Source: Candidatus Blautia faecipullorum | GTDB taxonomy: Bacteria; Bacillota; Clostridia; Lachnospirales; Lachnospiraceae | Length of the DNA: 64,000 bases | Assembly: GCA_019115125.1 (NCBI GenBank) | Contig: DXEG01000036.1 | Location: forward strand, 89,436-153,435 | Reading direction: 5' to 3' | Shown here: one piece after another, positions 12,947-29,966 of the stretch | Position numbering within the stretch: position 1 is the first letter of the stretch | How the letters are laid out: each line of letters opens with the position of its first letter | Notes under the pieces: model-generated | Told to the model about the DNA's origin: nothing | Seen by the model: only the letters and a program-made list of their open reading frames with translations | Database searches by the model: none | Translations under genes and position numbers: made by a program

Positions 12947-13747
12947 TCAATTATTTCTATGGCTGTTTCGATAATCTCTGGGAGACATGTGGTATTTCTC
13001 CCGAAAAACCCGGTTAAAAGTCCGCTGACTGCTAAAACCCGCATTTTCATAGGCTTCTGTAATGGTCTGGTCTGTATGGCAAAGTATATTGCAGGCATGA
13101 TCCAGACGGATGTTGTTCAGATAGGTGTTGAAATTACAGTGGAAGGTCCCTGAAAATACCCGTGATAAAACATACGGACTATAACCAAGATCGGCTGCCA
13201 TTTGAGCCAGAGAAATATCTTCCATATAATGTGAAGCAATGTATGTAACTGTCTGATAGATAATATCATCACTTCCAACAGAACTCTTATCTACAAGTTG
13301 AAAAAGAGGTAATGCACGTGCAAGTATAATCTGTGTGTATGATTGCCATAAAACATGAGTCTGCTCTTCTCCCGGCAAGCACCGGAGCAGACTGTCCATT
13401 GCATATTTAATATCTTGATGAACCAAAGAGGATCTGATAACAGGCAAATCTGGACAAAATTTCTGTAAGGTTTGAAGATAACCGCCTGAGAGCGAGGGCG
13501 AGGATAAAAGATAGATTCCCTGACAGGCTTTGCTGTCAAACACCTGATAATGATGGATCAATTCAGGAAAAACGATAGCAAAATCATGGGTTTCCATATG
13601 ATACAGATTTAATCCTACGCCTAGTTCAAGTGTTCCCTCTGTTACATAAACACATTCCAGTGACTTGTGAAGATGAGGGGGAATATGAACAGAAGGACCC
13701 TTGAATATTTCTAAATTGTCTTTTACATTCTCATATAATGGCATCAT
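12947..13747 (-). CDS. AraC family transcriptional regulator with cupin sensor domain
   Basis: A 266-residue regulator. The N-terminal part (about 1-130) is a cupin-like sugar-sensing barrel with the H-I-P-P-H-L-H-K-S-L-E-C-V-Y-V strand pattern, and the C-terminal 100 residues hold two helix-turn-helix motifs. The first is around ISLAQMAADLGYSPYVLSRVF; the second is in TITEAYENAGFSSQRTFNRVFREKYHMSPRDYR. The start was placed at ATG 13747 (another ATG follows at 13744), with GGAG 12 bases upstream. A longer TTG start at 13801 is possible but has no ribosome site. It is the leftmost gene of the accessory block and diverges from a 29-codon gene. It probably controls glycoside genes nearby. Confidence 0.85.
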   Translation of the reverse strand: MMPLYENVKDNLEIFKGPSVHIPPHLHKSLECVYVTEGTLELGVGLNLYHMETHDFAIVFPELIHHYQVFDSKACQGIYLLSSPSLSGGYLQTLQKFCPDLPVIRSSLVHQDIKYAMDSLLRCLPGEEQTHVLWQSYTQIILARALPLFQLVDKSSVGSDDIIYQTVTYIASHYMEDISLAQMAADLGYSPYVLSRVFSGTFHCNFNTYLNNIRLDHACNILCHTDQTITEAYENAGFSSQRTFNRVFREKYHMSPRDYRNSHRNN

Positions 13748-13858
13748 AATCTTTGGAAGCTCCTTTGCAAAAATTGGCTGTTTTTGAATGCAATCTGGCA
13801 AGCATTATCAGTACAGCCGGACTATAATGTGCTTGTAAAGAAAAAGGAGGTGAAAAAA

Positions 13859-13948
13859 ATGATTAAAGCAATCAAACATTTTATGAAAGACACATTCGAG
13901 TTTTATCTCAAGCTGTACGAAAATAATTATCGGTACTGTTCGAGGTAA
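13859..13948 (+). CDS. Putative 29-residue small protein with a very strong ribosome site
   Basis: The frame starts at ATG 13859 and stops at TAA 13946-13948. Upstream is AAAGGAGGTG with six bases to the ATG, a near-perfect Shine-Dalgarno site and the best-formed one in the area. The peptide (MIKAIKHFMKDTFEFYLK, then LYENNYRYCSR) alternates charged and aromatic/hydrophobic residues, as in an amphipathic helix. A TATAAT lies at 13823-13828 without a clear -35, and a hairpin with a T-rich tail follows at 13980-14018, so it may be its own transcription unit. No family is recognised and translation is unproven. Confidence 0.45.
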   Translation: MIKAIKHFMKDTFEFYLKLYENNYRYCSR

Positions 13949-14018: not shown

Positions 14019-14198
14019 AATTGCATTATTCTCTCGAAATGCCTTTGAATTTTTTGGAAAAGAAGTCAATAAGGCTTACTTTTACTAAATAGTATCATCT
14101 GTAATATAAATGATATTGCAGAATACTTCTTATAAATGTAAAATTCTTTTTTGCTTTTCCACATTATTGAGTAGAATTTTGGATTCTATAGATACTAA

Positions 14199-14252
14199 TT
14201 TACAATTTTATCCGCTATTTTGAAAGATTCTCCAGCGCACTCCTGATAAAAT
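14199..14252 (+). promoter_or_regulatory. AraC-type regulated promoter A (first GH3)
   Basis: Half-site TTACAAT at 14200-14206 and a degenerate second half TTGAAAG at 14220-14226 start 20 bp apart. A -10 box TAAAAT at 14247-14252 lies exactly 20 nt after the second half-site. No good -35 exists; where it should be, the second half-site overlaps, as in class II activation by AraC proteins. Same geometry as promoters B and C at 18013 and 22980. Confidence 0.65.
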
Positions 14253-14294
14253 ACCTGCAGTAATTGAACTTTTGCAGAAAGGAGAGAATGCTTT

Positions 14295-16721
14295 ATGGAA
14301 CTTCAGAAATACGAACAGGAGCATCTGGATATACTGCGCTCGCTCCTCCCGGAGTGCACGGTCCTTCTTAAAAAGAATGGAGATTTTCCGCTGGGAACCC
14401 CGGGGAAGATCGCCCTGTATGGTAATGGAGTGCGCAAGACGATAAAAGGAGGAACCGGATCCGGCGAGGTGAACTCCCGGTTTTTTGAAACAGTAGAGGA
14501 TGGATTTCAGAAAGCAGGGTTTGAAATTGTTTCCGGAGACTGGCTTGACGCTTATGACAAAATATATGCTAAAGCGCAGGCTGATTTCACAGAAGAAATC
14601 CGAAAAAGAGCGAAGGAGCACAACACTCACCCTGTGATTGAAGGAATGGGAGCAGTGATGCCGGAACCGGAATATAATCTGCCGCTGAATGTAAAAGGTG
14701 AGACAGCTGTGTATGTTCTGGCAAGGATATCAGGAGAGGGAAATGACAGAGAAGCGTCGGAAGGGGACATTTTCCTGACCGAAAGTGAAAAACGGACAAT
14801 CCTTGAACTGAACCGACAGTACAGAAGGTTTTTGCTGGTGCTCAATGTCGGCGGGGTGGTAGATCTTTCACCTGTCATGGAAGTGGAGAATATTCTGATC
14901 CTTTCGCAGCTGGGTGTACAGACAGGCAGCGCTCTTGCGGAGCTTGTCCTTGGAAAAACATATCCATCCGGAAAATTGACGACTACATGGACAAAATGGG
15001 AGGATTATCCTGACTTTGCGTCATTTGGCGAACAGGACGATACCCGGTATCAGGAAGGGATTTATGTGGGATACCGCTATTTTGACAGTGTGGGGAAAGA
15101 GGTACTGTTTCCGTTTGGATACGGTGGCTCTTATACGGATTTTGAAGTCCATTTCAAGAGCCTGATACTGGATAAAATGGCTGCTGAAATAAGCGCAGAA
15201 GTGGAGAATATAGGTGATTTCTGCGGGAAAGAGGTCGTACAGTTGTACGTCTCTATGCCGGAAGGAAAGCTGGATCAGCCTTATCAGGCTCTTGCTGCAT
15301 GGAAAAAAACGGAAGAATTGAAATCGGGGGAAAAACAGACGGTTAAGCTTTCATTTTTACTGACAGATCTGGCGTCTTACGATGAAGAACAGGCAGCGTG
15401 GATTCTTGAGAAAGGGGAGTATATCCTCCGCCTGGGGAGCAGCAGCAGAGATACGGAGGTCTGCGGTGTCATATCAGTGCCGGAGACGTTGGTTACGAAA
15501 TCTGTAAAGAACTGTTTTGGGAAAACAGATTTTACAGACTGGAAACCGGAAATAAAAAGGAAGAAAAGTTCGGGAACGGTAATACACTCTCTGGAAGCAG
15601 ATATTTCCGGCATGGATATAGTAAAAGTAGTCTATGAACAAAAGGATGAGCCGGCGCCGGAGATTAAGGGGCTTTCTAATGAGGAACTGATCCGCCTGAA
15701 CGTAGGTGCTTTCGCTGCGGGAGACGGAGTGACAGGCATCATAGGCAATGCTTCCATGTCTGTTGCAGGCGCGGCAGGCGAGACGGCAAAAGTGGGAGAA
15801 ATCCCAGTGATCGTTATGGCAGACGGCCCGGCAGGCCTGCGGCTTTCTCAAAAGTGCTTCAGGGATGAGAACGGGGTACATAGTCTGGAGAGTACAATGC
15901 CGGAGACAATGCAGAATCTTCTGACCGAGGATGAGCGCGCATATATGAACAGCATGATTCCGCAGCCCGGAGAGAACAGCAAGATTTATGAGCAGTATGC
16001 GACGGCAATTCCTATCGGTACAGCAATCGCCCAAAGCTGGAATCCATTTCTTGCAGAACGCTGCGGAGATATCGTAGGAAGCGAAATGAAGCGCTTCGGC
16101 ATTCATCTGTGGCTGGCTCCGGCTCTGAATATCCATCGGTCGATACGCTGCGGCAGAAATTATGAATATTTTTCAGAAGATCCGCTGATAAGCGGCGTAT
16201 TCGCGGCAGCGCTTACGAAAGGGGTGCAGAGTCATCCCGGGTGCGGGGTTACCATCAAACATTTTGTGGCGAATAATCAGGAGACAAACCGGTATAACAA
16301 TAACAGCGTAGTAAATGAACGTGCCCTGAGAGAAATCTATCTTAAGGGTTTTGAGATTTGTGTTCGTCTGGCACGGCCGAAAGCTTTGATGACTTCGTAT
16401 AATTTACTGAACGGCATGCATACCTCTGAACGGAAGGACCTGTTAGCGGATGTGCTCCGCAGTGAATTTGGATTCAAAGGAATCGTAATGACAGACTGGG
16501 TAACATCCTCTGATATATTGAGCGCCGGTGCAAAATATCCGCCACCCGAGGCATACAAGGTGGCTCTCGCCGGAAATGACCTGTTTATGCCGGGAAGCCA
16601 GCAGGAAGTTGATAATCTTTCGGAGGCGCTCAAAGACGGGCTTATCACAAGAGAAGACTTAATGAGAAATACCACCCGTATTTATCGGATGGCAATGGAA
16701 CTCTCAGGTGCTTTAGTTTGA
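14295..16721 (+). CDS. GH3 beta-glycosidase, circularly permuted domain order
   Basis: An 808-residue cytosolic glycoside hydrolase family 3 enzyme whose domains run in swapped order. The GH3 C-terminal alpha/beta domain comes first (about 15-240; VLLKKNGDFPL, RISGEGNDRE, LTTTW), then a fibronectin III-like domain (about 250-385; FPFGYGGSYTDF, GKEVVQLYVS). The (beta/alpha)8 barrel comes last (about 450-800) with KHFVANNQETNR and the nucleophile aspartate D734 in VMTDW. This order is known from some rumen Butyrivibrio and Ruminococcus beta-glucosidases. It has no signal peptide. Substrate (beta-glucoside, xyloside or other) cannot be set from sequence. AAAGGAG precedes the start, and its end overlaps the convergent araC gene by 9 bp. 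Confidence 0.9.
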   Translation: MELQKYEQEHLDILRSLLPECTVLLKKNGDFPLGTPGKIALYGNGVRKTIKGGTGSGEVNSRFFETVEDGFQKAGFEIVSGDWLDAYDKIYAKAQADFTEEIRKRAKEHNTHPVIEGMGAVMPEPEYNLPLNVKGETAVYVLARISGEGNDREASEGDIFLTESEKRTILELNRQYRRFLLVLNVGGVVDLSPVMEVENILILSQLGVQTGSALAELVLGKTYPSGKLTTTWTKWEDYPDFASFGEQDDTRYQEGIYVGYRYFDSVGKEVLFPFGYGGSYTDFEVHFKSLILDKMAAEISAEVENIGDFCGKEVVQLYVSMPEGKLDQPYQALAAWKKTEELKSGEKQTVKLSFLLTDLASYDEEQAAWILEKGEYILRLGSSSRDTEVCGVISVPETLVTKSVKNCFGKTDFTDWKPEIKRKKSSGTVIHSLEADISGMDIVKVVYEQKDEPAPEIKGLSNEELIRLNVGAFAAGDGVTGIIGNASMSVAGAAGETAKVGEIPVIVMADGPAGLRLSQKCFRDENGVHSLESTMPETMQNLLTEDERAYMNSMIPQPGENSKIYEQYATAIPIGTAIAQSWNPFLAERCGDIVGSEMKRFGIHLWLAPALNIHRSIRCGRNYEYFSEDPLISGVFAAALTKGVQSHPGCGVTIKHFVANNQETNRYNNNSVVNERALREIYLKGFEICVRLARPKALMTSYNLLNGMHTSERKDLLADVLRSEFGFKGIVMTDWVTSSDILSAGAKYPPPEAYKVALAGNDLFMPGSQQEVDNLSEALKDGLITREDLMRNTTRIYRMAMELSGALV

Positions 16722-17909
16722 CCGGCCTTTGGTCTGTTTCCGGTATTGGAGCGGCGTGACGCCGTATTGCTTTTTGAATACATTCTGAAAATAGGACTGG
16801 CTGGAAAAGCAGAGATAGCTGCTGATTTCAGCCAGTGTTTTTTCACTGTGGGTCAAAAGACTCTTAGCTTCCTCAAGTTTGCAGCGCATAATGTAAGCGC
16901 CGATGTGGATGCCGAGCTCATTTTTGAAATGCTTCATCATATAAGAACTGCTGCGGTTTACATGTGCCGCAGCATCTTCCACAGATATGGATTCGTTGGT
17001 ATGGCTTCGTATATAAGTCATACATGCATATACATCCGGTGAAACGTCCTCCGGGATGTGGCATTCACCGCAGCGCTGGCAGAAATCCATGACCATGACA
17101 TACATCAGGTGATTGATCTCATCAATGGTCTGGAGCTGTTCGCATTCCTGAATGTAATAATCAACCAGCTGGTAGGTCTTTTCGATATCAACTCCTCCCG
17201 GGATTGCTCCCATACTTCCAACTTTGGCGGCTGTAGTGATAAAAAGATTTTTTGTGTGACGAAGGGGAGACTGAGCCATCTTGCCTTCTTTTAATGCAAG
17301 TCTGCTGCCGGCAAAGAATTTTTTCAGTTTTGCAGGATCTCCTTCCTTGATACGCTGGTACATTTCCAGTTCAAAATAGTAAGTATTGTGGTTGTTTTCT
17401 TCCTCCTGATCTGTGATCATGTTGTCGATATGGCGGGTCTTCCGATGTCTGGTATAAATTTCGTCTTCTTGAAGAAGTAGCTGAAGATCCACAGTTTTAT
17501 TGTTCAGGCATTGATGAAAGAAGATGAGATATCTTGCAAACTGCATATGGCTTGTCCTTGGAATCGAGCACAGTAGTTCTGTAAGCTGTTCGCGCAGGGA
17601 GAGAGACATGGACAGTTCCCGCATGAACTGGCGGATCAGTTCTTCCGTGACAGGCACGTTAAATACCGGACCCAAGAAAAGGTCATATCCCGTACCTTCA
17701 ATCTGTACCCGGCCGTACTCGATATCAGGGGAATCGCCGCAGAAGCAGGGATTCTGGGAAGGATTTGCGTCGAACAACTCACGGTGATATTCAGAAAGAA
17801 TGTTCAGGGTTTCTCCAAGAGCAGAATATACCGCATCTCCGTTTTGGGTCAGGCTGACAGGGATATTCGTGGCGGAAAAGAAATTTCTGCATAAAGAAAT
17901 ATAATCCAT
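16713..17909 (-). CDS. AraC family transcriptional regulator (398 residues), likely regulator of the glycoside genes
   Basis: The C-terminal ~100 residues are a two-HTH AraC domain: ISVEDAAAHVNRSSSYMMKHFKNELG, then a second motif in TLAEISSYLCFSSQSYFQNVFKKQYGVTPLQYRK. The N-terminal 290 residues are a sensor of the type seen in gut Clostridia (RNFFSATNIPVSLTQ at the start, CFCGDSPDIEYGRV, a central helical part) and bind an unknown ligand, perhaps a sugar. It is transcribed divergently from the GH-A/GH94 unit. Its own -35 is only nine bases from the TTACAAT operator at 18014, which points to control of both directions. The 5' untranslated region holds a CCGCGC-ATG-GCGCGG hairpin. Its role is inferred from position. 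Confidence 0.88.
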   Translation of the reverse strand: MDYISLCRNFFSATNIPVSLTQNGDAVYSALGETLNILSEYHRELFDANPSQNPCFCGDSPDIEYGRVQIEGTGYDLFLGPVFNVPVTEELIRQFMRELSMSLSLREQLTELLCSIPRTSHMQFARYLIFFHQCLNNKTVDLQLLLQEDEIYTRHRKTRHIDNMITDQEEENNHNTYYFELEMYQRIKEGDPAKLKKFFAGSRLALKEGKMAQSPLRHTKNLFITTAAKVGSMGAIPGGVDIEKTYQLVDYYIQECEQLQTIDEINHLMYVMVMDFCQRCGECHIPEDVSPDVYACMTYIRSHTNESISVEDAAAHVNRSSSYMMKHFKNELGIHIGAYIMRCKLEEAKSLLTHSEKTLAEISSYLCFSSQSYFQNVFKKQYGVTPLQYRKQTKGRSN

Positions 17910-17975
17910 TCGTTTCAGTTCCTTTCATCGACCGCGCATGGCGCGGAAATTTCATAAGCAGTATTCTTTGCATCT

Positions 17976-18004
17976 AGTATAATTCCGGTTCATGGAAAAA
18001 ACAA
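17976..18004 (-). promoter_or_regulatory. Promoter of the 398-residue AraC regulator
   Basis: On the minus strand TTGTTT (18004-17999) and TATACT (17981-17976) are separated by 17 bp. It is back to back with regulated promoter B. Confidence 0.65.
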
Positions 18005-18012
18005 GATTCCAA

Positions 18013-18066
18013 TTTACAATTTCGGAAAGAATTTTGCAATATTTTAAGAGCTTCGCATGGTAGTAT
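18013..18066 (+). promoter_or_regulatory. AraC-type regulated promoter B (GH-A / GH94 unit)
   Basis: Half-sites TTACAAT at 18014-18020 and TTGCAAT at 18034-18040, 20 bp apart. A -10 TAGTAT at 18061-18066 lies 20 nt after the second half-site. The arrangement is identical to promoters A and C. Confidence 0.7.
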
Positions 18067-18144
18067 GTGCTCAGTTAAGCTGATATAGCATGACGGGGAA
18101 ACAAGAAGAGAAAAAATGAATGTCTGAAAAAGGAGGAAAACACG

Positions 18145-20577
18145 ATGAAACAGCGTATATGTATCCACAAGACGGAGCCGAACAAAGGAATCCTTAATTA
18201 TTCCCATTTATTAGACGCCCCGGCCGGAAAGCATGGTTTTGTGGAGACAAGGAAAGGACATCTCTATTTTACAGATGGAACAAGAGCTAGATTTCTCGGA
18301 TTTAATGTAGCCGCAAGATCCAACACGCCGGATCATGAGACAGCAGATAAACTGGCGGAGCGTTTTGCAAGTATGGGCGTCAATATTATTCGGCTTCACG
18401 CAGCGGACGCTCCGGTCGGTGAAGAACCGGGAAGCTGGAGCAGCTGTAAGGAAGCGCCTCTTCTGGATTACGCGTCAGGGACGAGCAGGAAATTTAATCC
18501 GGAAGGGCTGGACCGCTTTGACTATTTTGCCGCAAAGCTGAAGGAGAAGGGGATTTATCTCCACATTGACCTGATCGTAGCAAGGGAATTTCAGGAGGGA
18601 GACGACATGGATTACCCGGGCGGAGCACCTTCCTGTCTGAAACGCTACTTTATGTACAATGAACGGGCGATCCAGCTTCAAAAAGAGTATGCGAAGCAGC
18701 TTCTCTGCCATGTGAATCCGTATACAGGACTTGCCTTGATTGATGATCCGGCCGTGGTGACAATCCAGATCAATAACGAGGAGACTGCCATCAAAGGAAA
18801 TATGGGGGCGGATGCGGGAGAAGAACTGAAACCTTACAGGGAGGAAGTCCAGAGACGGTTCAATGAGTTCCTTCTGATGAAATATTATACAAGAGAACGT
18901 CTGAAAGAGGCGTGGACTCATGAAGGATGCTGTGCATTGGGCGAGGATGAAGATCCGGCGCAGGGAACGGTACGTGTGATCGAGGGTAGCTTCTACCAGC
19001 CGGTGAATGATCCGGAGAGCCAGTGGGATGCGCCGGAGAGCCCGGCCAGATATGCGGACTTTATGGAATTTGGTATCTATATGAACCGCAAGTTTTATCA
19101 GGATATGAAAGATTATATTCATTCGCTGGGCTCGAAAGTCCCGATTGTTACAAGTAATCTGATCGCAGGGGCGGCAGATGTATACGGACACACCGACGGA
19201 GATCTGATGGAGAATAACAGCTATTTCAATCATCCGCTTCTGCCGGTACAGGATAATACTTATCTGGTGGCAGGTCCGGCTGAGTATGTATCAGCGAATC
19301 CGCTGACGATGCAAAAGGGGATCGGCTCTATGGCGACAACTCTTTTGAGCCTTGCGTCTGTTGCTATTGTTGGGGGAAAGCCGTTTATGCTCAGTGAGTG
19401 GAATGAATACGGGGAGCATCCGTTCCACTCTACGGCATTTGTACATACCGTAGCATACGCCTGCTTAAATGACTGGGATGGCCTGATTCTCTACAACCAT
19501 CATACATCGGAACACTGGGACGACCAGCCGGCGGATGAGATCTTGAATGTGTTTGACGTGTACAATGACCCGGCAGTGATCTGCCAGTGGGGATTTATGG
19601 CGTCTGTCTTTCTGAAAGGGCTTGTCTCCGTGGCGAAACACTGCGTAGATGTTGTCTACACACAGAACGACTTGAAAACACTGCCTCTCTTCCATGCTAT
19701 GCCGACCACTTTTTTCCCATATATTACGTCTATGCGCAATGTATTTCTGGATGGAGGAGACAGCTACCAGGGCAATGCGGACATAGCGGTAAATGCCGGA
19801 TTCTTAAATGGCGCTGATCTCTCAGATGCGGAACATGGCGTATATTATGCATGGTCTGAGTACAGGGATGCGTTCCGGCGTTATAAAGAGGAAAACCGTC
19901 TGGCAAATGCTGCGAAAGACACGAAAGAGATTCAGCCGGGAGTGCATCTTGGAGAAAAAGCACTTGTGTTTGACCAGATCAGAGAGACAGCGGACAACGG
20001 AGATTACCGGACGTTTGCTGAAATCATGGATCGTGCGATGAAAGAGTGGGGAATTTTGCCGGAAGATGCGGGCTATGTGGAAGGGAAAATGGTTTCCGAT
20101 ACAAAAGAAATCGTTTTTGATCCGGATCACGCACGGTTCTCTATCCGCACGCCTTACTGCGGATATTTCAGCGGCGCGCCGGAAAAAGAAATTGCCCTTT
20201 CTGATAAGATTTCTGTGGAGGCGGAAAACGAAAGGATCACACTGGCCCTGATCGCAAAAGATGAAATTAGGATGAATGGCGCGTCAGAATATATTTTGAC
20301 GGCAATGGGTACAACCGGTATGGACGAGACAACATTTGGACAAGGTCCGGAGATGATGGGCGTGCCGTTTGCCGCTGTAGCATTTAAAGGAAAACTTTAC
20401 GCAGAGACACTGGAGGGCTGCATCCGGGTGAAGGCGGAGAATGCCAGAATAGAGGTGCTAAGTCCAGTTGGTGAAGTGATCGCTGAACTGAACGGGGAGA
20501 AGGCCGGAGATGAGATCCGGTTCACAAAGGACGGCTCTGTTCCGGGTATCCAGTACAGACTTGTGGTCAGTGAATAA
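18145..20577 (+). CDS. Clan GH-A glycoside hydrolase-like protein, family not identified
   Basis: An 810-residue protein without a signal peptide. The start (FTDGTRARFLGFNVAARSN, then MGVNIIRLHAAD) is the first strand-helix unit of a GH5-like TIM barrel. The acid/base glutamate is probably E212, after the Q-I-N-N motif at the end of strand 4; the nucleophile is probably E418 in MLSEWNEYG at strand 7. Both agree with clan GH-A. The barrel ends near 470; about 340 more residues form a helical segment and a C-terminal beta region. It is close to cellulase/GH5-like and beta-galactosidase-like Clostridial proteins, but I cannot name the CAZy family or substrate. AAGGAGG precedes the ATG. It is followed 59 bp later by the GH94 gene in the same unit. 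Confidence 0.75.
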   Translation: MKQRICIHKTEPNKGILNYSHLLDAPAGKHGFVETRKGHLYFTDGTRARFLGFNVAARSNTPDHETADKLAERFASMGVNIIRLHAADAPVGEEPGSWSSCKEAPLLDYASGTSRKFNPEGLDRFDYFAAKLKEKGIYLHIDLIVAREFQEGDDMDYPGGAPSCLKRYFMYNERAIQLQKEYAKQLLCHVNPYTGLALIDDPAVVTIQINNEETAIKGNMGADAGEELKPYREEVQRRFNEFLLMKYYTRERLKEAWTHEGCCALGEDEDPAQGTVRVIEGSFYQPVNDPESQWDAPESPARYADFMEFGIYMNRKFYQDMKDYIHSLGSKVPIVTSNLIAGAADVYGHTDGDLMENNSYFNHPLLPVQDNTYLVAGPAEYVSANPLTMQKGIGSMATTLLSLASVAIVGGKPFMLSEWNEYGEHPFHSTAFVHTVAYACLNDWDGLILYNHHTSEHWDDQPADEILNVFDVYNDPAVICQWGFMASVFLKGLVSVAKHCVDVVYTQNDLKTLPLFHAMPTTFFPYITSMRNVFLDGGDSYQGNADIAVNAGFLNGADLSDAEHGVYYAWSEYRDAFRRYKEENRLANAAKDTKEIQPGVHLGEKALVFDQIRETADNGDYRTFAEIMDRAMKEWGILPEDAGYVEGKMVSDTKEIVFDPDHARFSIRTPYCGYFSGAPEKEIALSDKISVEAENERITLALIAKDEIRMNGASEYILTAMGTTGMDETTFGQGPEMMGVPFAAVAFKGKLYAETLEGCIRVKAENARIEVLSPVGEVIAELNGEKAGDEIRFTKDGSVPGIQYRLVVSE

Positions 20578-20636
20578 ACACAGTTTCCAGAAGAATGTTT
20601 TGAGATTACAAAATAATAAAACAGGAGATTGAAGGA

Positions 20637-22970
20637 ATGATGAATTCTGAGTCAACGAAACGTGCGGAAAATGCACTGTATGAGTTTACACCGGACGGCA
20701 ACAGCTGCCGGATCTATAAGGCGGAGACGCCCCGCTACTGGTACAATTACCTGTGGAATGAAGACCGTTACTGCGCTCAGATATCGCAGGTAGGACACGG
20801 GCGCAGCTATTATCTTAGTGAAAAGGCAGATATGTGCATGATCAACCGGGATGATGCCAGATATGTATATTTAAGAGATGATGCAGACGGAACATGCTGG
20901 AATATCGGGAAGGGACCGCTTAACACAGAGGTGGAAGACTATTCCTGTACTCACAGCATCGGCTATACACAGATTCATTCAAAGAAAAATGGAATTGAGG
21001 GGTCGTGGAGGATCTTTGTGCCGAAGAAAGGCTTTCATGAGGTGTGGACACTGAAACTTCGCAATACAGCAGAGCAGGAGAAAAGGTTAAACATGTTCTC
21101 TGCGGTCAGTTTCTATCTGGAAGGCTTCTCTTACCCCAGATACTACGAAATGTACCGCTGCATGAAGACAGAATTCAAACGGGAACTGAACGGGATTTAC
21201 TGTGATTCCGCCCATCCCTTTGCTCCTCATGAACTGTATCATGGTTTTCTGGCCTCATCGGAGCCGGTTTATGCATGGGACGGTGACCTGACAAAGTTCT
21301 GCGGATCCACAAGCACGCTGACATTACCGGATGCTTCTGCCTGCGTCCTGTTCCAGAGACCGGATATTGTCGTGCAGGGAAGAGACTGTACCAACTCCGA
21401 AGCCTCGTTGTTCATTCTTGGCGGTGTGCTGCAGCATAAAATCACACTGATGCCGGGAGAGGAGAAAGAGATTCAGGTTGTATTCGGAATCAGTTCTTCC
21501 TGTGAAGAGGCATGCAGTGTAGTGAGGAGGTATGCAGATGCAGAATCCACAGAACAGGAGTTTGCAGAGGCGGAGGCGTATAATTATGAGAAGATCAGCT
21601 CTTTGTCTGTGAAAACACCGGACCAGAAGATTAATTATATGATGAACAACTGGGTGAAAAAGCAGGCGGATTTCTGTATCGTAGGAAAGAAAGGTGTCCG
21701 TGATAACCTGCAGATCTCTGCAGCGCTGCTGAATTACCGTCAGGAGAAAGCAAAAGAAGAAATCCTGGAATGTCTGCGCCATCAGTTTCAGGACGGGCAC
21801 GGAGTGCTTACATGGTATCCCTATGATGATACGCGTTATTCAGATCAGCCATTCTGGATTATCTGGGCGGTGTGCGAACTGATCAAAGAGACGGGGGATC
21901 TGTCAATTCTTGATACGGAGATTGAATGGCAGGACGGCGGTAAAGCATCCGTGCTGGAGCATGTGAAGGCTGCGGTCAGCCGCCTGATCCTTGACAAAGG
22001 GGAGCACGGCTTGGTGAAGATTTATTTCGCCGACTGGAATGACGCCTTGAATATCACGGATGATCCGGAGGCAGAGTCCGTGATGCTGTCCCACCAGTTC
22101 TGTCTTGCACTGAGAGAATTAAAGAGAATGATGGAGTACGCGGGCAATACACAGTATGCCGGATTTCTTGAGAAAGAATATGAACAGCTAAAGGAAGATA
22201 TCAACCGTTATGCGTGGGATGGAAAATGGTACGCGAGAGCCCTAAGCAGCAAAGGAAACGTAGGGGCACAGGACAGCATCGGAAGTAAGATCTATCTGAA
22301 CGCTCAGACATGGGCTGTGCTGGCAGGAGTCGCGGACAGAGAAAGATTGACTTATGTGTTGGAAGCTGTGGACAGTATGGAGCAGGATTTCGGCTTCCCC
22401 TTAAATCTGCCGCCATACCAGGAGTATGATGCCCATGTGGGAAGGATGTCCGGGATGCTGCCGGGTCTTTTTGAGAACGGCGGAGTGTACTGCCATGCTA
22501 CCGGTTTTAAGATCCTCATGGACTGCTGTACGGGCAGAGGGGAAAAAGCGTTGAAAACACTGAAAAAAATCATGCCCGACAGCGAAGAGAACCCGTCGGC
22601 GCAGTCAGGGGCAGAACCCTATGTTTTTACCAACTGCTATTCTACGAACCCGGGATATTACGGGAAATCTTATCAGTCCTGGACTACAGGGACTTCCGCG
22701 TGGTGCATGATGGGGCTGTATGAGGGGATCCTGGGCGTGAAACGCGACTATGCCGGGCTTAGGATCAGTCCCTGTTTTCCGGAAGAATGGGAAGAGGCAG
22801 AAGTGACAAGACAGTTTAGAAATGCGGATTATCATATTATCATCCGCAATCCCGAACATATTAAGAAGGGAAAAGCTGAGGTTTATGCTGACGGTGTTAT
22901 CTGCGATTTTGGGCTGATACCAGACTATCAGGACGCTAAGCAGCATACGATAGAAGTTTTTATAAAATAA
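20637..22970 (+). CDS. GH94 family beta-glycoside phosphorylase
   Basis: A 777-residue enzyme of the former glycosyltransferase 36 family. It cuts a beta-linked disaccharide or oligosaccharide with phosphate to give a sugar 1-phosphate, saving ATP. It has an N-terminal beta-sandwich (about 10-280, with YLWNEDRYCAQISQVGHGRSYY), an (alpha/alpha)6 barrel with GVRDNLQ (phosphorylase fold) and DWND at 466-469 that includes the catalytic acid. The C-terminal part has ENGGVYCHATGFKIL, SWTTGTSAWC, and YAGLRISPCFPEEW. Cytosolic. Its specificity (cellobiose, laminaribiose, chitobiose or another) cannot be read. It follows the GH-A gene, which could supply its substrate. The symporter promoter begins only 9 bases after its stop. 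Confidence 0.9.
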   Translation: MMNSESTKRAENALYEFTPDGNSCRIYKAETPRYWYNYLWNEDRYCAQISQVGHGRSYYLSEKADMCMINRDDARYVYLRDDADGTCWNIGKGPLNTEVEDYSCTHSIGYTQIHSKKNGIEGSWRIFVPKKGFHEVWTLKLRNTAEQEKRLNMFSAVSFYLEGFSYPRYYEMYRCMKTEFKRELNGIYCDSAHPFAPHELYHGFLASSEPVYAWDGDLTKFCGSTSTLTLPDASACVLFQRPDIVVQGRDCTNSEASLFILGGVLQHKITLMPGEEKEIQVVFGISSSCEEACSVVRRYADAESTEQEFAEAEAYNYEKISSLSVKTPDQKINYMMNNWVKKQADFCIVGKKGVRDNLQISAALLNYRQEKAKEEILECLRHQFQDGHGVLTWYPYDDTRYSDQPFWIIWAVCELIKETGDLSILDTEIEWQDGGKASVLEHVKAAVSRLILDKGEHGLVKIYFADWNDALNITDDPEAESVMLSHQFCLALRELKRMMEYAGNTQYAGFLEKEYEQLKEDINRYAWDGKWYARALSSKGNVGAQDSIGSKIYLNAQTWAVLAGVADRERLTYVLEAVDSMEQDFGFPLNLPPYQEYDAHVGRMSGMLPGLFENGGVYCHATGFKILMDCCTGRGEKALKTLKKIMPDSEENPSAQSGAEPYVFTNCYSTNPGYYGKSYQSWTTGTSAWCMMGLYEGILGVKRDYAGLRISPCFPEEWEEAEVTRQFRNADYHIIIRNPEHIKKGKAEVYADGVICDFGLIPDYQDAKQHTIEVFIK

Positions 22971-22979
22971 GGATGAAAC

Positions 22980-23032
22980 TTACAATTTTGTAAATTATTT
23001 TACAATAATTATCTTTAGAAAAACAGTATAGT
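22980..23032 (+). promoter_or_regulatory. AraC-type regulated promoter C (GPH symporter)
   Basis: Two exact half-sites TTACAAT at 22980-22986 and 23000-23006, 20 bp apart, then 20 nt, then TATAGT at 23027-23032. It is the best-preserved of the three sites in the block and lies directly behind the GH94 stop codon. Confidence 0.75.
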
Positions 23033-23067: not shown

Positions 23068-24498
23068 ATGGCAAAGGATAAGAACGCCCCCCGTTATGAC
23101 AAACAAGGCGCAAGGCGCGTGATGCGCAAAAGAGATTATCTGGCAGATTTTGGCGGACAGCTCGCATTAGGACTGATGGCGAATCTGGTCGGACAGCTCA
23201 ATTATTTCTACACGGACAAGGTAGGACTGGCTGTCGGAAGCGTTGGTATTGTACTGGCAATCTCAAAGGTGGTCGATGCATTTACGGATGTAATTGCAGG
23301 GAATCTGATTGATCATTCAAAGGGCGGCGACCATAAATATTTCAGGTGGATCCTGCCGCAGATCATTCCGGCGGCGCTGATCATGATCCTGATGTTTACC
23401 GTACCGATCCAGGCAGGACAGATTCCGGGCATAATCTACGCATTGGTTACGAACCTGGTGCTGTCAGCAGGTCTTTACACCTTTATCGCGACCCCGTTTT
23501 CAGCAGTTATGACTGTACGAAGCAGAAGCCTGAGCGAGAGGGGAAGTATCGGGCTGTTCCGTGCGGTTGCCAATTATGGCGCGGGAATGCTGATCTCCAT
23601 TCTTACGATCCCGGTGACAAATATGCTGGGCGGCACACAGTCCGCATGGATCAAATACGGCGTGGTGCTTGGCGTAATGGTATTCGTCCTGTTTTCAATC
23701 TGCTGCCATAATGGACGCAAAGCCAAGTTTGCATGTGATTACGAAGAAGAAGAAACGGAAGGTGCCGCTGAGGAAGAGGAAGAGCCGGTTCCTTTTAAAG
23801 AGGCAATGACCATGCTTCTGAAGAATAAATACTGGGTGATCATCCTGCTCTTTAACCTGATCACAAGTGTTACGAGCGGTATCGCGGCATCCGGCGGTAC
23901 ATACTACTGTAAATGGATTTTCGGGAATGATAATCTGGTCGGATTAATCGGAGCAGCAGGTATGCTGGCTACTGTAGTGGGATTCCTTTTATCAAAGCCA
24001 ATCATTGCCGGGCTTGGAATCAAGAGGACAATTTCTATTGGTCTGCTGGGAGCGGCGATACTCGCAGGCATCCGCTGTTTTATACCAACGAACTTTACTG
24101 TTTATGTAGTGACCAGCCTCTTAGGAAGTTTTGTGCAGATTCCAATGATGAGCCTGTACGGGGTACTGACATCCATGACCATTGATTACAATGAGTGGAA
24201 ATATGATAAGAAACTGGTGGCAATGTCAGGCGGCGCGATCGGCTTTGGCAGCAAGGTAGGAAATGGTCTTGGAGCAGCAGTCCTGTCGGCGTTTCTGGCA
24301 ATCGGAGCATATGATGCCACGCTGGAAGTCGCAAGTACATCCATGACATATTCCATTTATGGATTCTCAAATTATCTTCCGGTTGTGATCAATCTTGTGA
24401 TGTTCGTGATCTTCCTGAAATTTGATCTGGAAGAAAAGCTGCCGAAGATGCGCGAGGAGATTGCTGCGCGCAGAGCAGGAAAGGGCATTGAAAAATAA
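23068..24498 (+). CDS. GPH-family sugar:cation symporter (MFS-like)
   Basis: A 476-residue inner-membrane transporter of the glycoside-pentoside-hexuronide:cation family, with about 12 hydrophobic segments. The N-terminal signature YLADFGGQLALGLMANL, then YFYTDKVGL, and the loop VVDAFTDVIAGNLIDHSK are characteristic: the aspartates of D-A-F-T-D bind the coupling cation in MelB-like members. There is an acidic stretch EEEETEGAAEEEEEP in the central cytoplasmic loop (about 226-240). It is expected to import the glycosides used by the surrounding cytosolic enzymes. AGGAGG precedes the start. Its own regulated promoter C and a downstream hairpin make it a separate unit inside the cluster. Confidence 0.93.
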   Translation: MAKDKNAPRYDKQGARRVMRKRDYLADFGGQLALGLMANLVGQLNYFYTDKVGLAVGSVGIVLAISKVVDAFTDVIAGNLIDHSKGGDHKYFRWILPQIIPAALIMILMFTVPIQAGQIPGIIYALVTNLVLSAGLYTFIATPFSAVMTVRSRSLSERGSIGLFRAVANYGAGMLISILTIPVTNMLGGTQSAWIKYGVVLGVMVFVLFSICCHNGRKAKFACDYEEEETEGAAEEEEEPVPFKEAMTMLLKNKYWVIILLFNLITSVTSGIAASGGTYYCKWIFGNDNLVGLIGAAGMLATVVGFLLSKPIIAGLGIKRTISIGLLGAAILAGIRCFIPTNFTVYVVTSLLGSFVQIPMMSLYGVLTSMTIDYNEWKYDKKLVAMSGGAIGFGSKVGNGLGAAVLSAFLAIGAYDATLEVASTSMTYSIYGFSNYLPVVINLVMFVIFLKFDLEEKLPKMREEIAARRAGKGIEK

Positions 24499-24590: not shown

Positions 24591-24647
24591 GAGTTATAGG
24601 CAAAAATAGGAATGGGAAGAGAGATAGGCAGAAAGGAGAAGGCAAGA

Positions 24648-27392
24648 ATGATAATATATGATTTCAGGATAGAATACAGGGAACAACCTAAAGGACTGGC
24701 TGTGGAGATACCCCGTTTTTCATGGAAGATCGCATCTGGTGACAACAATGTGGTGCAGACAGCATGGCATCTGATTGTGGACAGTGCGGGAAAATGCTTC
24801 TGGGACAGTGGAAAGGTTGAGAGTGATCAGTCTGTGCTGGTTCCTTATGCCGGACAAGCGCTTACCAGAGAACAGGAGTATCAGGTTTCTCTCGAAATCT
24901 GGGACAATTATGGAAATAGAGCAAAAGCAGAGACGTCTTTTACAACAGGTGTTTTTGATACCAGGGATTTTCAGGCCAAAATGATCACACATGATTTCCC
25001 TCCTGAGGAAACGGCGTGTCCGATATTCTTCCGGAAATTTTCTCTGGACAAGGAAGTATCATCTGCCTGCCTTTACGCCACGGCGCTTGGTGTCTATGAA
25101 ATCACCCTGAATGGAAAAAGGGTAGAAGACTATTGCATGGCACCCGGCTGGACAGATTATCATAAGATTTTGCAGTATCAATATTATGATGTGACAGACA
25201 GGCTGCAAGGGGCAGGACAGGAAAATGTTCTGAAATTGACCGTGGGCAACGGCTGGTATAAAGGGATTCTCAGCTTTGACTGTAAGCCGGACCGATATGG
25301 GGATCGGACTGCCGTGTGGGCAGAGCTCCATGTGCGTTATAAAGATGGGACGGAAGAGGTGATTGCGACCGATGAGACCTGGGGCGTTCGAACCGGACAG
25401 ATCCGTTACAGCGAGATCTACATGGGAGAGATGATTGATACAAATGCCCCTGATATCAGAGAGGGAAAGGTGTCTTCCGTGCCGGAAGCCGTATTTCATC
25501 CAACTGTATTGACGCCGCAGCTAAATGAACCAGTACGGGTGACAGAGCGCTTGAAAGCAAAGAGGGTTTTCACGGATTCCAAAGGGAATATACTTGTAGA
25601 TTTCGGACAGAACCTTACAGGTCTTGTAGAAGTGAGGATTCAGGGGGAAAAAGGTCAGAAGGTCACTGTCCGGCATGCGGAAACCCTGGATCAGTACGGC
25701 GTATTTTACCCGGATACTCTGCGAACGGCAAAGTCCGAGGATATTTATATTCTAAACGGGGAAGAACAGGTTCTGATGCCCCACTTTACATTCCATGGCT
25801 TCCGGTATGCTGCCGTGGAGGGAATAGAGAACCCTGAACCGGAAATGTTTACCGCCTGCGTAATGCATTCAGACATGAGAAAGACCGGGCAGTTCCACTG
25901 TTCCAATGAAAAAGTAAACCAGCTCCAGAGCAATATTTCCTGGAGTCTGCGTGACAATTTCTTCGATATTCCATCCGACTGTCCGCAGAGAGATGAACGG
26001 CTTGGATGGACGGGGGATGCGCAGGTCTTCTCATGGACAGCAGCATTCAACCGGGAGACGGCTCTGTTTTTTACAAAATGGATGAGGGATGTATCGGCAG
26101 CATCTTCGAAAGAAAAAGGCGTGCCCCATATAGTGCCTGATATCCAGGGAACGTACAGTTCCGCAGCATGGAGTGACGCAGCGGTGATCATACCGTGGGT
26201 AGTTTATCAGACCTATGGGGACACACGTATTTTAGAAGAATCCTGGAAATGTATGCACGAGTGGGTGGACTATATTCACAATCACGTAAATGAAAACGGG
26301 CTGTGGATGACCAATTACCAGTATGGCGACTGGCTGGCGCTGGACCGCGAAATGGGAGATAAAAGCGTAGGGGCTACAGATGTTTACTTTGTGGCAAACG
26401 CTTACTATATATACGTTACAGAGCTTGTGGCAAAGACAGCCCATGTGCTGGGGAAATATGGCGAGGCGGCATATTATGAAGTGCTCCGTGAAAAGACGCT
26501 GGACTCTTTCAGGAAAGAATATTACACCGCAAGAGGCCGGATCGTCAGTGAGACTCAGACTGCATGTGCGCTGTCTCTATATTTTAACCTGGCATATGAA
26601 AAGGACAGGGAAAAGATTGTACAGATGCTGGTGAGCAATATAGAAGATCATCAGAATCATCTGACTACAGGATTTGTAGGAACGCCCTATTTATGCCATG
26701 CCCTGTCTGAGAACAAAGCTCATGATACTGCCGGACTCCTGTTTATGAGAGAGGATCTGCCCTCATGGCTGTATGCCGTGAATAAGGGAGCAACGACACT
26801 TTGGGAGAGGTGGGACGCCATCCTGCCAGACGGCACTATGCAGGATCCGGGGCTTAATTCTATGAACCACTATGCAAATGGAGCGATCGGCGATTGGATG
26901 TATCGGAAAATCGGCGGTATAAATCAGACGGAAGCCGGATACAGGAGATTTTATGTAAAACCGATGTTTGTAATGGGAATCGAAGAGGCAAGGACAGAGC
27001 TGGAGTCTCCTTACGGAAAGATTGTTTCCTGCTGGAGCTGCCGCAAGGGAAAGATCCGGGTGGAAGTCAGCGTGCCTGCCAATACGAGGGCAGAGCTGTT
27101 TCTGCCGGAAAAAGAGGAATCCTTTGAGGTGGGATCGGGAACGCATGTATATGAATATGACACAAACACAAGTTTAAAAGAGCTGAAATTCACTCTGGAC
27201 AGTACATTTGGAGAGATTCTGGACGAACCTCTCGGCATGAAAATGATGGAAGAGATGGTACCGGAACTTGTGCACAATCCGATAATCGAATACGCAAGGA
27301 GGATGACGCTTGCAGAGGGAATCAGCTCTGCACCGGAGATCCGAAAGGTTTATGAAGCCGTGCTAAAAGAATTGAATGGACAGTGTGAATGA
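24648..27392 (+). CDS. GH78 alpha-L-rhamnosidase
   Basis: A 914-residue enzyme that removes terminal alpha-L-rhamnose from glycosides. The layout fits the family: N-terminal beta domains (about 1-300; VEIPRFSWKI, MAPGWTDYHKILQYQYYDVT, VGNGWYKG), a concanavalin-like domain with VDFGQNLTGLVEVR, an (alpha/alpha)6 catalytic barrel opening with the hallmark DCPQRDERLGWTGDAQ (D444, D449, E450, D457), and a C-terminal beta-sandwich. No signal peptide. ATG 24648 is chosen over the in-frame ATG 24612 because AAAGGAG stands at correct spacing. It heads the second glycosidase operon; no clear promoter lies between it and the hairpin, so read-through from the symporter unit is possible. Confidence 0.93.
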   Translation: MIIYDFRIEYREQPKGLAVEIPRFSWKIASGDNNVVQTAWHLIVDSAGKCFWDSGKVESDQSVLVPYAGQALTREQEYQVSLEIWDNYGNRAKAETSFTTGVFDTRDFQAKMITHDFPPEETACPIFFRKFSLDKEVSSACLYATALGVYEITLNGKRVEDYCMAPGWTDYHKILQYQYYDVTDRLQGAGQENVLKLTVGNGWYKGILSFDCKPDRYGDRTAVWAELHVRYKDGTEEVIATDETWGVRTGQIRYSEIYMGEMIDTNAPDIREGKVSSVPEAVFHPTVLTPQLNEPVRVTERLKAKRVFTDSKGNILVDFGQNLTGLVEVRIQGEKGQKVTVRHAETLDQYGVFYPDTLRTAKSEDIYILNGEEQVLMPHFTFHGFRYAAVEGIENPEPEMFTACVMHSDMRKTGQFHCSNEKVNQLQSNISWSLRDNFFDIPSDCPQRDERLGWTGDAQVFSWTAAFNRETALFFTKWMRDVSAASSKEKGVPHIVPDIQGTYSSAAWSDAAVIIPWVVYQTYGDTRILEESWKCMHEWVDYIHNHVNENGLWMTNYQYGDWLALDREMGDKSVGATDVYFVANAYYIYVTELVAKTAHVLGKYGEAAYYEVLREKTLDSFRKEYYTARGRIVSETQTACALSLYFNLAYEKDREKIVQMLVSNIEDHQNHLTTGFVGTPYLCHALSENKAHDTAGLLFMREDLPSWLYAVNKGATTLWERWDAILPDGTMQDPGLNSMNHYANGAIGDWMYRKIGGINQTEAGYRRFYVKPMFVMGIEEARTELESPYGKIVSCWSCRKGKIRVEVSVPANTRAELFLPEKEESFEVGSGTHVYEYDTNTSLKELKFTLDSTFGEILDEPLGMKMMEEMVPELVHNPIIEYARRMTLAEGISSAPEIRKVYEAVLKELNGQCE

Positions 27393-27447
27393 TTCTGGGC
27401 ATACTTGACTGCTTGGAAAAAGCAAAAATAAAAGGAGAAGAAAGTAA

Positions 27448-29907
27448 ATGGCACTGCAGAAGGTAAAATATACAGACACCGCGAAAAAACCGGCTGAACG
27501 GGCACAGGCGCTTCTCGAAGAAATGACTTTAGACGAGAAGATGGCGCAGCTTGGCTGCATTTTCCCCTTTGGCGACAGCTATGATGATATGGACCGGCAG
27601 GCTTTGGAGATGCCTTATGGGATCGGTCAGGTAAGCACTCTGGAAATGCGCAGGATACGCACTCTGGAGGACGCTGCTGCATGGCAGCGTAAGATGCAGG
27701 AGACTGTGATGAGACAAAGTCCTCATCATATCCCGGCAATCTTTCATATGGAAGGACTGTGCGGAGCGTTTATTCAGGAAGGGACCAGTTTCCCTTCCGG
27801 GATCGCCAGAGGCTCAGGATGGGATCCGGAGCTAGAGGAGAAGATAGCCAGAGTGGTGGCGAAACAGGAAGCAGCCTGCGGCATTACTCACATTCTGGCG
27901 CCAGTGCTGGATATTTCACGAGATTCCCGCATGGGGAGACAAGGAGAGACCTACGGGGAAGACCCGGCTCTGGCGGCAGCTCTGGGGGCAGCGTATACGA
28001 AAGGAATTCAAACGACTGAGACAGATGGAAGAAAACCGGAAAGTGTGGCCAAGCATTTTCTTGGATTTCACAATTCGCAGGGAGGTATCCACGGGACGAA
28101 CAGTGATACACCGTCCCGGCTCATAGGAGAAATCTACGGGAAGCCTTTTCAGGCCGCGATTTCTGAATCCGGGCTGAAAGGAGTCATGCCCTGCTATAAT
28201 TCTATCGATGGTGAGCCGGCTTCCGTTTCATACAGGCTGCTCACGGAACTTCTCAGAGAAAAGATGGGGTTTGACGGTCTGTGTGTCAGCGATTACGGCG
28301 GCATTAACAATGCCCACGAAGTCCAGCGGATCGGAGAGACTATTGGAGAAACAGGACTTCTTGCCATGGAAGCAGGGATGGACATGGAGATGCCAAAAGC
28401 GATCGGTTATGGCGAAGAACTCAAAGAAATGTTCCGAAGCGGACAGGCGGATACAGAATTGCTGGACCGGACAGTTCTGAGGGTGTTGGAAGCGAAATTC
28501 CGCATGGGCCTGTTTGAACATCCTTTTGCCATGGATGGTGAGTCCTGCAAAAAGATTTTTGAAGAGAAAGAAGGGGAGGAGCTGTCACTTCAGTCGGCAA
28601 GGGAATCCATGATACTTCTGAAAAATAATGGCATCCTGCCACTGTCAGGTAAGATGAAAAAACTTGCCCTGATCGGGCCTCATGCAGACTGTGCCCGTAA
28701 GTTTTTCGGCGGATATACTCATCTGTGCATGATGGAGTCGGTCTACGCGGCCGCAAGCTCCATCGCAGGTGTCGAGGGCAGCCCGGAGTCCGGACAGATT
28801 GGCGGAGCAATGCTGCCAAACGGCGAACCGGTGGATTATGTCCCGGGTACAAATATCCAGTCAGACGAAGCGGAACTCTTTAACGACATCCTGCGCTTAC
28901 AGAAGCCGGGATGCAGAAGCCTGTTAGAAGAACTAAAGGAGCGTATGACAGATACGGAGATTCTGTATGCGTATGGATACCCGGTTGCCGGAAAGGATCA
29001 GAGCAGATTTGAAGAGGCACTGCAGGCAGTCAGGGAAGCGGATGTTGTGATCCTCACTCTGGGAGGAAAGCACGGTACATGCTCTATGGCGACCATGGGA
29101 GAAGGTGTGGACGCTGCCGACATCAATCTGCCGGAATGTCAGGACGCATTTATTAAAGCAGCATCGGTGTATGGAAAGCCCTTAATCGGCATCCATTTTG
29201 ATGGCAGGCCGGTCTCCAGTGACACAGCAGACCAATATCTGGATGCCGTCATAGAAGCATGGAGCCCGGCGGAAACGGGAGCGCGGGCTGTGGCAGATGT
29301 CCTGCTTGGAGAATATAATCCGGGCGGCAAACTGCCGGTATCCGTGGCATATCACGCCGGACAGATCCCGATCTACTATAATCACCCGAACGGTTCCGCG
29401 TGGCACCAGCAGGAGAGCATCGGATTCGTCAATTATGTGGATCTTCCCCATACGCCGAGATATTGCTTCGGGCATGGATTGTCTTATACACGGTTTGAGT
29501 ATTCAGACATTCATATATCGACGGCAGAGATTGGAGCAGAAGAATCCGTACAGATCAGCTGTGTGGTAAAGAATGTGGGAAGCCGCGCCGGGGATGAGGT
29601 GGTACAGCTTTATCTCAGGGACAGATTTGCAAGTATGACACGTCCGGTTAAAGAGCTTGCCGGATTTAAGCGGATTCATATGAAGCCGGGGGAAAAAGTA
29701 CGTGTGAAATTTACAGTACAGGCGGATCAGTCAGCATTTCTTGACAGACAGATGCGCTGGAAGGTGGAAAAAGGGGATATAGATGTAGAAATTGGAAGTT
29801 CTTCTGAGGATATTCGGTTAAAAGGAACGTATCGGATTACAGAGGATAGATGGATCGACGGAGCAAAAAGAGCATTTTATGCGAAAGTACAGAAAGACAA
29901 AGTATAG
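27448..29907 (+). CDS. GH3 beta-glycosidase, normal domain order
   Basis: An 819-residue cytosolic GH3 enzyme. The (beta/alpha)8 barrel comes first (about 10-350; LLEEMTLDEKMAQLGC, VLDISRDSRMGRQGETYGEDP, KHFLGFHNSQGG) with nucleophile D282 in LCVSDYGG. The alpha/beta sandwich domain follows (about 375-630; MILLKNNGILPLSG, LTLGGKHGT), and a C-terminal fibronectin III-like domain (about 670-800; YCFGHGLSYTRFEYS, GDEVVQLYLRD). No signal peptide. The family spans beta-glucosidase, beta-xylosidase and related activities and I cannot choose between them. AAAAGGAG precedes the start, and it lies 55 bp after the rhamnosidase in the same unit. Confidence 0.93.
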   Translation: MALQKVKYTDTAKKPAERAQALLEEMTLDEKMAQLGCIFPFGDSYDDMDRQALEMPYGIGQVSTLEMRRIRTLEDAAAWQRKMQETVMRQSPHHIPAIFHMEGLCGAFIQEGTSFPSGIARGSGWDPELEEKIARVVAKQEAACGITHILAPVLDISRDSRMGRQGETYGEDPALAAALGAAYTKGIQTTETDGRKPESVAKHFLGFHNSQGGIHGTNSDTPSRLIGEIYGKPFQAAISESGLKGVMPCYNSIDGEPASVSYRLLTELLREKMGFDGLCVSDYGGINNAHEVQRIGETIGETGLLAMEAGMDMEMPKAIGYGEELKEMFRSGQADTELLDRTVLRVLEAKFRMGLFEHPFAMDGESCKKIFEEKEGEELSLQSARESMILLKNNGILPLSGKMKKLALIGPHADCARKFFGGYTHLCMMESVYAAASSIAGVEGSPESGQIGGAMLPNGEPVDYVPGTNIQSDEAELFNDILRLQKPGCRSLLEELKERMTDTEILYAYGYPVAGKDQSRFEEALQAVREADVVILTLGGKHGTCSMATMGEGVDAADINLPECQDAFIKAASVYGKPLIGIHFDGRPVSSDTADQYLDAVIEAWSPAETGARAVADVLLGEYNPGGKLPVSVAYHAGQIPIYYNHPNGSAWHQQESIGFVNYVDLPHTPRYCFGHGLSYTRFEYSDIHISTAEIGAEESVQISCVVKNVGSRAGDEVVQLYLRDRFASMTRPVKELAGFKRIHMKPGEKVRVKFTVQADQSAFLDRQMRWKVEKGDIDVEIGSSSEDIRLKGTYRITEDRWIDGAKRAFYAKVQKDKV

Positions 29908-29966
29908 CTGACACATACACTTACAGCGGGTCGGATAAGGTATCCGGCAGAACAGGAGGAAAATAG

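Follow-up and report, generated by a model that had tools for sequence, protein, structure and literature searches.

A putative sugar-utilization regulon with direct half-sites 20 bp apart and its most likely AraC-family regulator in Candidatus Blautia faecipullorum

Genes and operator sites of the locus

The window, i.e. the whole 64,000-nucleotide stretch that was analysed (G000:C9:89436-153435, from an assembly of 3.5 Mb), contains a gene for an AraC-family protein of 398 residues (hereafter 398-aa AraC) together with genes for glycoside hydrolases (GH), a GH94 phosphorylase and a GPH-type sugar symporter (Table 1). Three promoters with a common operator layout, located at 14200, 18014 and 22980, had been proposed by the initial annotation to form a local regulon. 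They were recovered both in the sequence and with the pattern TTACAAT-N13-TTRCAAT-N20-TANNNT, which matched at 18014 and 22980 with 0 mismatches and at 14200 with 2. All three proved real, but the proposal was incomplete: a fourth site, D, lies on the opposite strand (14141-14089, 2 mismatches), and a second, paralogous regulon occurs on another contig, C19 (see below). At up to 3 mismatches the window held 5 matches, against a mean of 0.16 in 100 shuffles (largest 2). The fifth one, at 22960 (3 mismatches), overlapped site C and reached a matrix score of only 14.6; it was rejected as a separate site and counted with site C. A matrix built exclusively from the sites of relatives gave the scores listed in Table 1, and nothing above 10 in the reversed window. 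As read from the sequence, each of the four sites has an A where transcription is expected to start, and a TG precedes the -10 box in three of them.

Table 1. Positions of the operator sites and genes discussed in the text (window coordinates, except for the last line)
Feature	Position	Strand	Description	Matrix score
Site A	14200..14252	+	boxes TTACAAT (14200-14206) and TTGAAAG (14220-14226, degenerate); TG 14244-14245; -10 TAAAAT (14247-14252); expected start A14259; precedes GH3 gene 14295-16721	30.1
Site B	18014..18066	+	boxes TTACAAT (18014-18020) and TTGCAAT (18034-18040); TG 18058-18059; -10 TAGTAT (18061-18066); expected start A18073; precedes GH-A gene 18145 and GH94 gene 20637	40.3
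Site C	22980..23032	+	boxes TTACAAT (22980-22986 and 23000-23006); no TG; -10 TATAGT (23027-23032); expected start A23039; precedes GPH symporter gene 23068	39.9
Site D	14089..14141	-	boxes TTACATT (14141-14135) and CTGCAAT (14121-14115); TG before -10 TACTAT (14094-14089); expected start A14082, reads left	32.4
284-aa AraC-family regulator	12947..13801	-	cupin-type sensor; rejected as binder	
GH3 enzyme	14295..16721	+	domain order C-N; probable target of site A	
398-aa AraC-family regulator	16713..17909	-	DNA-binding domain at about residues 290-395; most likely binder of sites A-D	
810-aa GH-A-like protein	18145..20577	+	weak GH5 mannanase similarity; probable target of site B	
GH94 phosphorylase	20637..22970	+	probably co-transcribed from site B	
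GPH-type sugar symporter (MFS_2)	23068..24498	+	probable target of site C	
GH78 rhamnosidase and two GH3	24612..32438	+	short gaps; possibly in site C operon	
Second paralogous cluster	G000:C19:20798-35640 (L061, L062)		regulator 42% identical to 398-aa AraC; five sites	

The four sites were retained in a related genome, G292, whose regulator is 66% identical, with scores of 40.5, 39.9, 29.0 (site A, at the same place) and 27.5 (site D). For site D, the next called gene on the same strand is that of a second AraC-family protein (284-aa AraC), 340 nt from the site start and about 280 nt past the expected start. No convincing target of this site was found in the window, and in G292 no same-strand gene follows it closely. 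DNA homology between the window and G292 stops just beyond site D, where recombinase-like genes (identified by sequence reading) adjoin in G292. Between site D and the 284-aa AraC gene, the plus strand contains a small ORF (13859-13948) that encodes 29 residues (MIKAIKHFMKD...) and has a strong AAGGAGGTG ribosome site.

The enzymes displayed several particularities. In the GH3 proteins encoded at 14295-16721 and 29967-32438, the C-terminal domain precedes the N-terminal one. The GH94 protein was about equally close to cellobiose phosphorylases (308.7) and chitobiose phosphorylases (306.4), and no ligand is therefore named here. For the GH-A protein, nothing beyond weak similarity to GH5 mannanases and GH42 was found. 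Among the 26 aligned members of its family (mean column identity 70%), 11 were without a Pfam match at 0.01 and the others matched GH42 only weakly; N211-E212 and E418 were invariant throughout, in line with the acid/base and nucleophile of clan GH-A. A terminator scan for operon ends remained at chance level (15 versus 14.1 in shuffles).

Spacing and promoter layout among relatives

The layout was analysed in 82 loci of relatives, comprising 78 loci around regulator homologues (L070-L147) and four others (L063-L066), and including some near-duplicates (e.g. L092/L093, L064/L065, L066/L140 and L145/L146). They were divided by match ranking, not by tree, into 52 "ortho" loci (the better matches) and 30 "para" loci. 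Pairs of TTRCAAT boxes with at most one mismatch in all were found at a distance of 20 in 91 ortho and 50 para cases, whereas any other distance between 8 and 44 accounted for at most 11 and 13, respectively; the reversed sequence of the 82 loci contained none at distance 20. The 21-bp period of other AraC regulators, of the araBAD type, was not recovered (2 ortho and 4 para pairs).

Among 131 unique sites picked by boxes alone, the -10 having played no part in selection, TAnnnT began at +47 in 115, TG of the extended -10 (TGn) stood at +44/+45 in 63, and the expected start at +59 was an A in 94 (versus a mean of 39% further on). The absence of a -35 box, claimed by the initial annotation for its three promoters, extended to the whole family: at a spacing of 16-18 bp, the best TTGACA match was 4/6 in 5 of the 131 sites and none reached 5 or 6 of 6, which is a depletion relative to the control region (about 16/131 with at least 4/6). 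Taking +47 as -12, the boxes span about -59 to -53 and -39 to -33. The sites thus display the direct-repeat operator of AraC/XylS systems, about two turns apart and beside the promoter, with a 20-bp period and a fixed -10.

At a matrix score of at least 20, 169 matches were recorded (109 ortho and 60 para) and none in reversed sequence. Of these, 13 lay wholly within called ORFs. The first gene downstream coded for a GPH symporter (34), a GH-A protein (32), GH3 enzymes of three kinds (20), GH78 (13), GH94 (3) or another product (45); in the remaining cases it was more than 400 bp away (14) or the contig ended (8). Where a gene lay within 400 bp (147 sites), its start codon followed the site start at a median distance of 97. 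The other products, unlike the window genes, formed 17 clusters, and one representative of each was scanned: they included GH1, GH2, GH43, GH5, a rhamnosidase, esterases and transport proteins, as well as a few unrelated ones (acyltransferase, radical-SAM).

The initial annotation had proposed scans of the genome and of its relatives, and held that random occurrence elsewhere at a similar rate would count against the regulon. In the own genome, when up to 3 mismatches were allowed, the half-site pattern without -10 matched 18 times, compared with 2 in the reversed control; the 8 matches with at most 2 mismatches all fell in the window (4) or on C19 (4). A looser first pattern yielded 44 matches at 3 mismatches against 20 in the reversed control, which is the one result that would agree with mere coincidence in A+T-rich intergenic DNA; at up to 2 mismatches, 9 of its 11 matches already belonged to the window and C19 clusters, and the two elsewhere (C15 and C59) had matrix scores below 10 and of 14.3. 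Chance as the origin of the pattern can be practically dismissed, being refuted by the spacing test and opposed by the fixed -10, the shuffles and the reversed controls, all of which placed the sites far above random expectation.

The candidate regulator and its paralog

The C-terminal domain of 398-aa AraC contains two helix-turn-helix motifs (HTH_18 and HTH_AraC, 67 and 66 bits, above cut-offs), as is typical of the AraC/XylS family, and an HTH match was present in 39/39 aligned regulator homologues. Its N-terminal part of about 280 residues had no Pfam match. The AraC_binding cupin sensor (PF02311) was unmatched in this protein and absent from the families matched by the aligned set A1 (E 0.01). 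Model TIGR04094 (the "adjacent_YSIRK" regulator) matched residues 77-390 with 162.9 bits, but below its curated cut-off of 200. Solved structures, among the matches listed, aligned only inside the C-terminal part.

The sites tracked the clade of this regulator. Sites scoring at least 20 occurred in 51/52 ortho and 29/30 para loci, a total (80/82) that is not independent because the matrix was trained on those same 82 loci, some of them near-duplicates; at the two exceptions, L105 and L125, the regulator is present but unaccompanied by a site. All 63 sites within 400 bp upstream of the regulator gene (43 ortho and 20 para) are oriented divergently from it. Outside the training set, such a site was found at 10 of 11 loci whose regulator was at least 37% identical, one of them marginal (G178:C9, 20.2), while G178:C52 contained nothing above 15.4. 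The architecture conserved beside the regulator recurs in dozens of relatives. At lower identity it was nearly absent: none of the four loci at 33% (two) and 28-30% (two) had a site of at least 20, and only one of 24 other distant AraC relatives did (L042; L036-L053 and L055-L060, with 1.5-kb flanks). This site-like sequence (L042:1340, minus strand, 26.2) displays TTTACTAT half-sites near a regulator only 34% identical, and perhaps represents a sister clade with a related operator.

Among 299 genomes of the family, 16 had the regulator at E 1e-50 or better, and the strict pattern gave 6 matches in 5 genomes (control 0). Four of these lay within about 105 bp of a regulator gene; for a fifth, in the C19 cluster, the distance was about 3 kb, and the sixth belonged to G202, where the regulator is absent and the site nevertheless scored 27.2. 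The strict motif was thereby found in 4/16 genomes with the regulator versus 1/283 without (p 2.7e-5). A further candidate exception, G135, with a GH-A gene and a site, was discarded: its contig ends in a truncated piece of the regulator (37% over 147 aa). Between the window and G292, the enzymes are 88-96% identical, but the regulator (L161:6005-7198 in G292) reaches 87% over the DNA-binding domain and only 45-52% over residues 1-165. This suggests that the sensor half of the regulator diverges fast or was exchanged between the two.

The other AraC protein of the locus, 284-aa AraC, was considered as the binder since it adjoins site D and carries a cupin sensor of the sugar type. Its homologue was labelled in just one of the 82 relative loci (L090), whereas sites occurred in 80, and G292 keeps its four sites without it (within the 13 kb examined). 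It was rejected because of this absence from all relative loci but one, which makes its control of the sites very improbable. As proposed by the initial annotation, 398-aa AraC is thus the most likely regulator of the local regulon, given that the sites track its clade and that site types are specific to each paralog. The same annotation placed the promoter of this regulator next to site B. The divergent geometry stood, site B beginning 105 bp upstream of the 398-aa AraC start codon; a clear promoter of the regulator gene was looked for and not found.

The C19 cluster contains five sites of the same geometry (matrix scores 32.2-37.8), preceding GH2-like, two GH78-like, GPH-like and esterase-like genes, the last being judged from its cluster mate L131. 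Ortho and para matrices trained on other genomes assigned all nine own-genome sites to the right type, the four window sites differing by +10.3 to +16.1 bits and the five C19 sites by -3.9 to -10.3. Leave-one-locus-out typing was correct for 139 of the 169 sites and wrong for 30. Differences between window and C19 sites clustered at +15, +28, +18 and +19. Since the matrices split their sites, the two regulons are probably separate, and the C19 paralog would run the second one through sites of that geometry whose half-sites differ in flavour. A shared operator pool, with both paralogs cross-regulating both clusters, would agree with the common geometry, the common TTRCAAT box and the nearly identical HTH2 helix; the opposite signs obtained with matrices trained elsewhere render it unlikely.

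In E. coli AraC, the two HTHs of each subunit touch A- and B-boxes. In the present clade, ortho and para members have a nearly invariant HTH2 helix (QSYFQNVFKK) while HTH1 differs; likewise, the TTRCAAT box is invariant while the box upstream differs. In partial correlations over 68 loci, with N-terminal distance controlled, the A-box distance followed HTH1 (0.18, p 0.002) but HTH2 not clearly (0.07, p 0.09), and for the proximal B-box the correlation was stronger with HTH2 (0.30, p 0.002) than with HTH1 (0.13, p 0.012). In these 68 loci the distal B-box did not track HTH2 (partial -0.15, p 0.97), and the N-terminus was tracked by the A-box as well (0.29), for which reasons the contact map constitutes weak evidence.

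Proposed activation and relation to known systems

At araI1-I2, E. coli AraC binds a pair of direct half-sites separated by about two turns, of which the one closer to the promoter overlaps the -35 region. The window sites share this arrangement, and differ by their period (20 instead of 21 bp) and their half-site sequence; a further difference is the N-terminal domain of 398-aa AraC, which matches no AraC_binding model. By this class-II-like placement and the missing -35 box, we infer ligand-responsive activation. The N-terminal domain would respond to a ligand that is probably a plant oligosaccharide or glycoside taken up by the cell. A dimer would occupy the two half-sites, each subunit contacting TTRCAAT through HTH2 and a second box, about 10 bp further upstream, through HTH1. 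The half-site box nearer to the promoter would set the protein against RNA polymerase, replacing the -35 contact at promoters that often carry an extended -10, and the GH3, GH-A plus GH94 and GPH symporter genes would switch on together. Site B, being in the divergent gap, may also limit transcription of the regulator itself.

Repression by 398-aa AraC from the same sites was also weighed, as the operators are near the promoter and the divergent one could repress the regulator's own gene. It appears quite improbable: the boxes stand upstream of the -10 without overlapping it, the promoters have no -35, and tandem AraC-type sites upstream of promoters in Caldicellulosiruptor have been read as activator sites (PMC8579813). 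On the strength of the sequence comparisons, the window very probably represents a local sugar-utilization regulon in which four promoters would obey 398-aa AraC as an activator.

Other systems offer partial parallels. AraC-family rhamnose regulators of Bacillales, Bacteroides and Enterococcus use direct repeats with a 21-bp periodicity (PMC3870299); like the present one, theirs are local sugar regulons found by comparative genomics, with a different period, different regulators and different targets. In Caldicellulosiruptor bescii, regulons of AraC-family and AraC-type two-component regulators have, ahead of the promoter, tandem repeats whose spacers are large, and one such motif, the regulator of which is unknown, precedes two cellobiose phosphorylases (PMC8579813); the likeness concerns the layout as described there and not motif letters compared with TTRCAAT. 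The mixed-linkage glucan locus of Blautia producta, also a gut Firmicute, associates AraC and GH94 as the window does, with an ABC transporter and GH16 where the window has GPH and GH-A; the accessible text describes no operator (PMC10318527). A literature search, from which subscription papers and figures largely fell out, yielded no description of the regulator clade or of the motif, and one on the letters TTACAAT gave only unrelated papers among those listed. The regulon seems therefore undescribed, with a mechanism of known kind; what sets it apart is a period of exactly 20 bp, a -10 at a fixed distance and the presence of two paralogs.

The sugar regulons of gut Lachnospiraceae-like and other Clostridia are largely uncharted. 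If our reading is true, the targets of an entire clade of regulators in these bacteria can be predicted from one short motif of fixed spacing, which also names clusters (GH-A, GH94, GPH, GH78, GH3, GH1, GH2 and GH43) whose substrates induction could reveal. As one genome contains two paralogs whose site types can be told apart, it further offers a direct way to test how cross-talk between AraC paralogs is avoided. With chances that we consider about even, this clade of gut Firmicutes would combine a frozen HTH2/TTRCAAT contact and polymerase geometry with a drift of HTH1 and the A-box that insulates paralogs, and with a sensor that diverges fastest; its members would then be modular plant-glycoside switches with targets readable from DNA.
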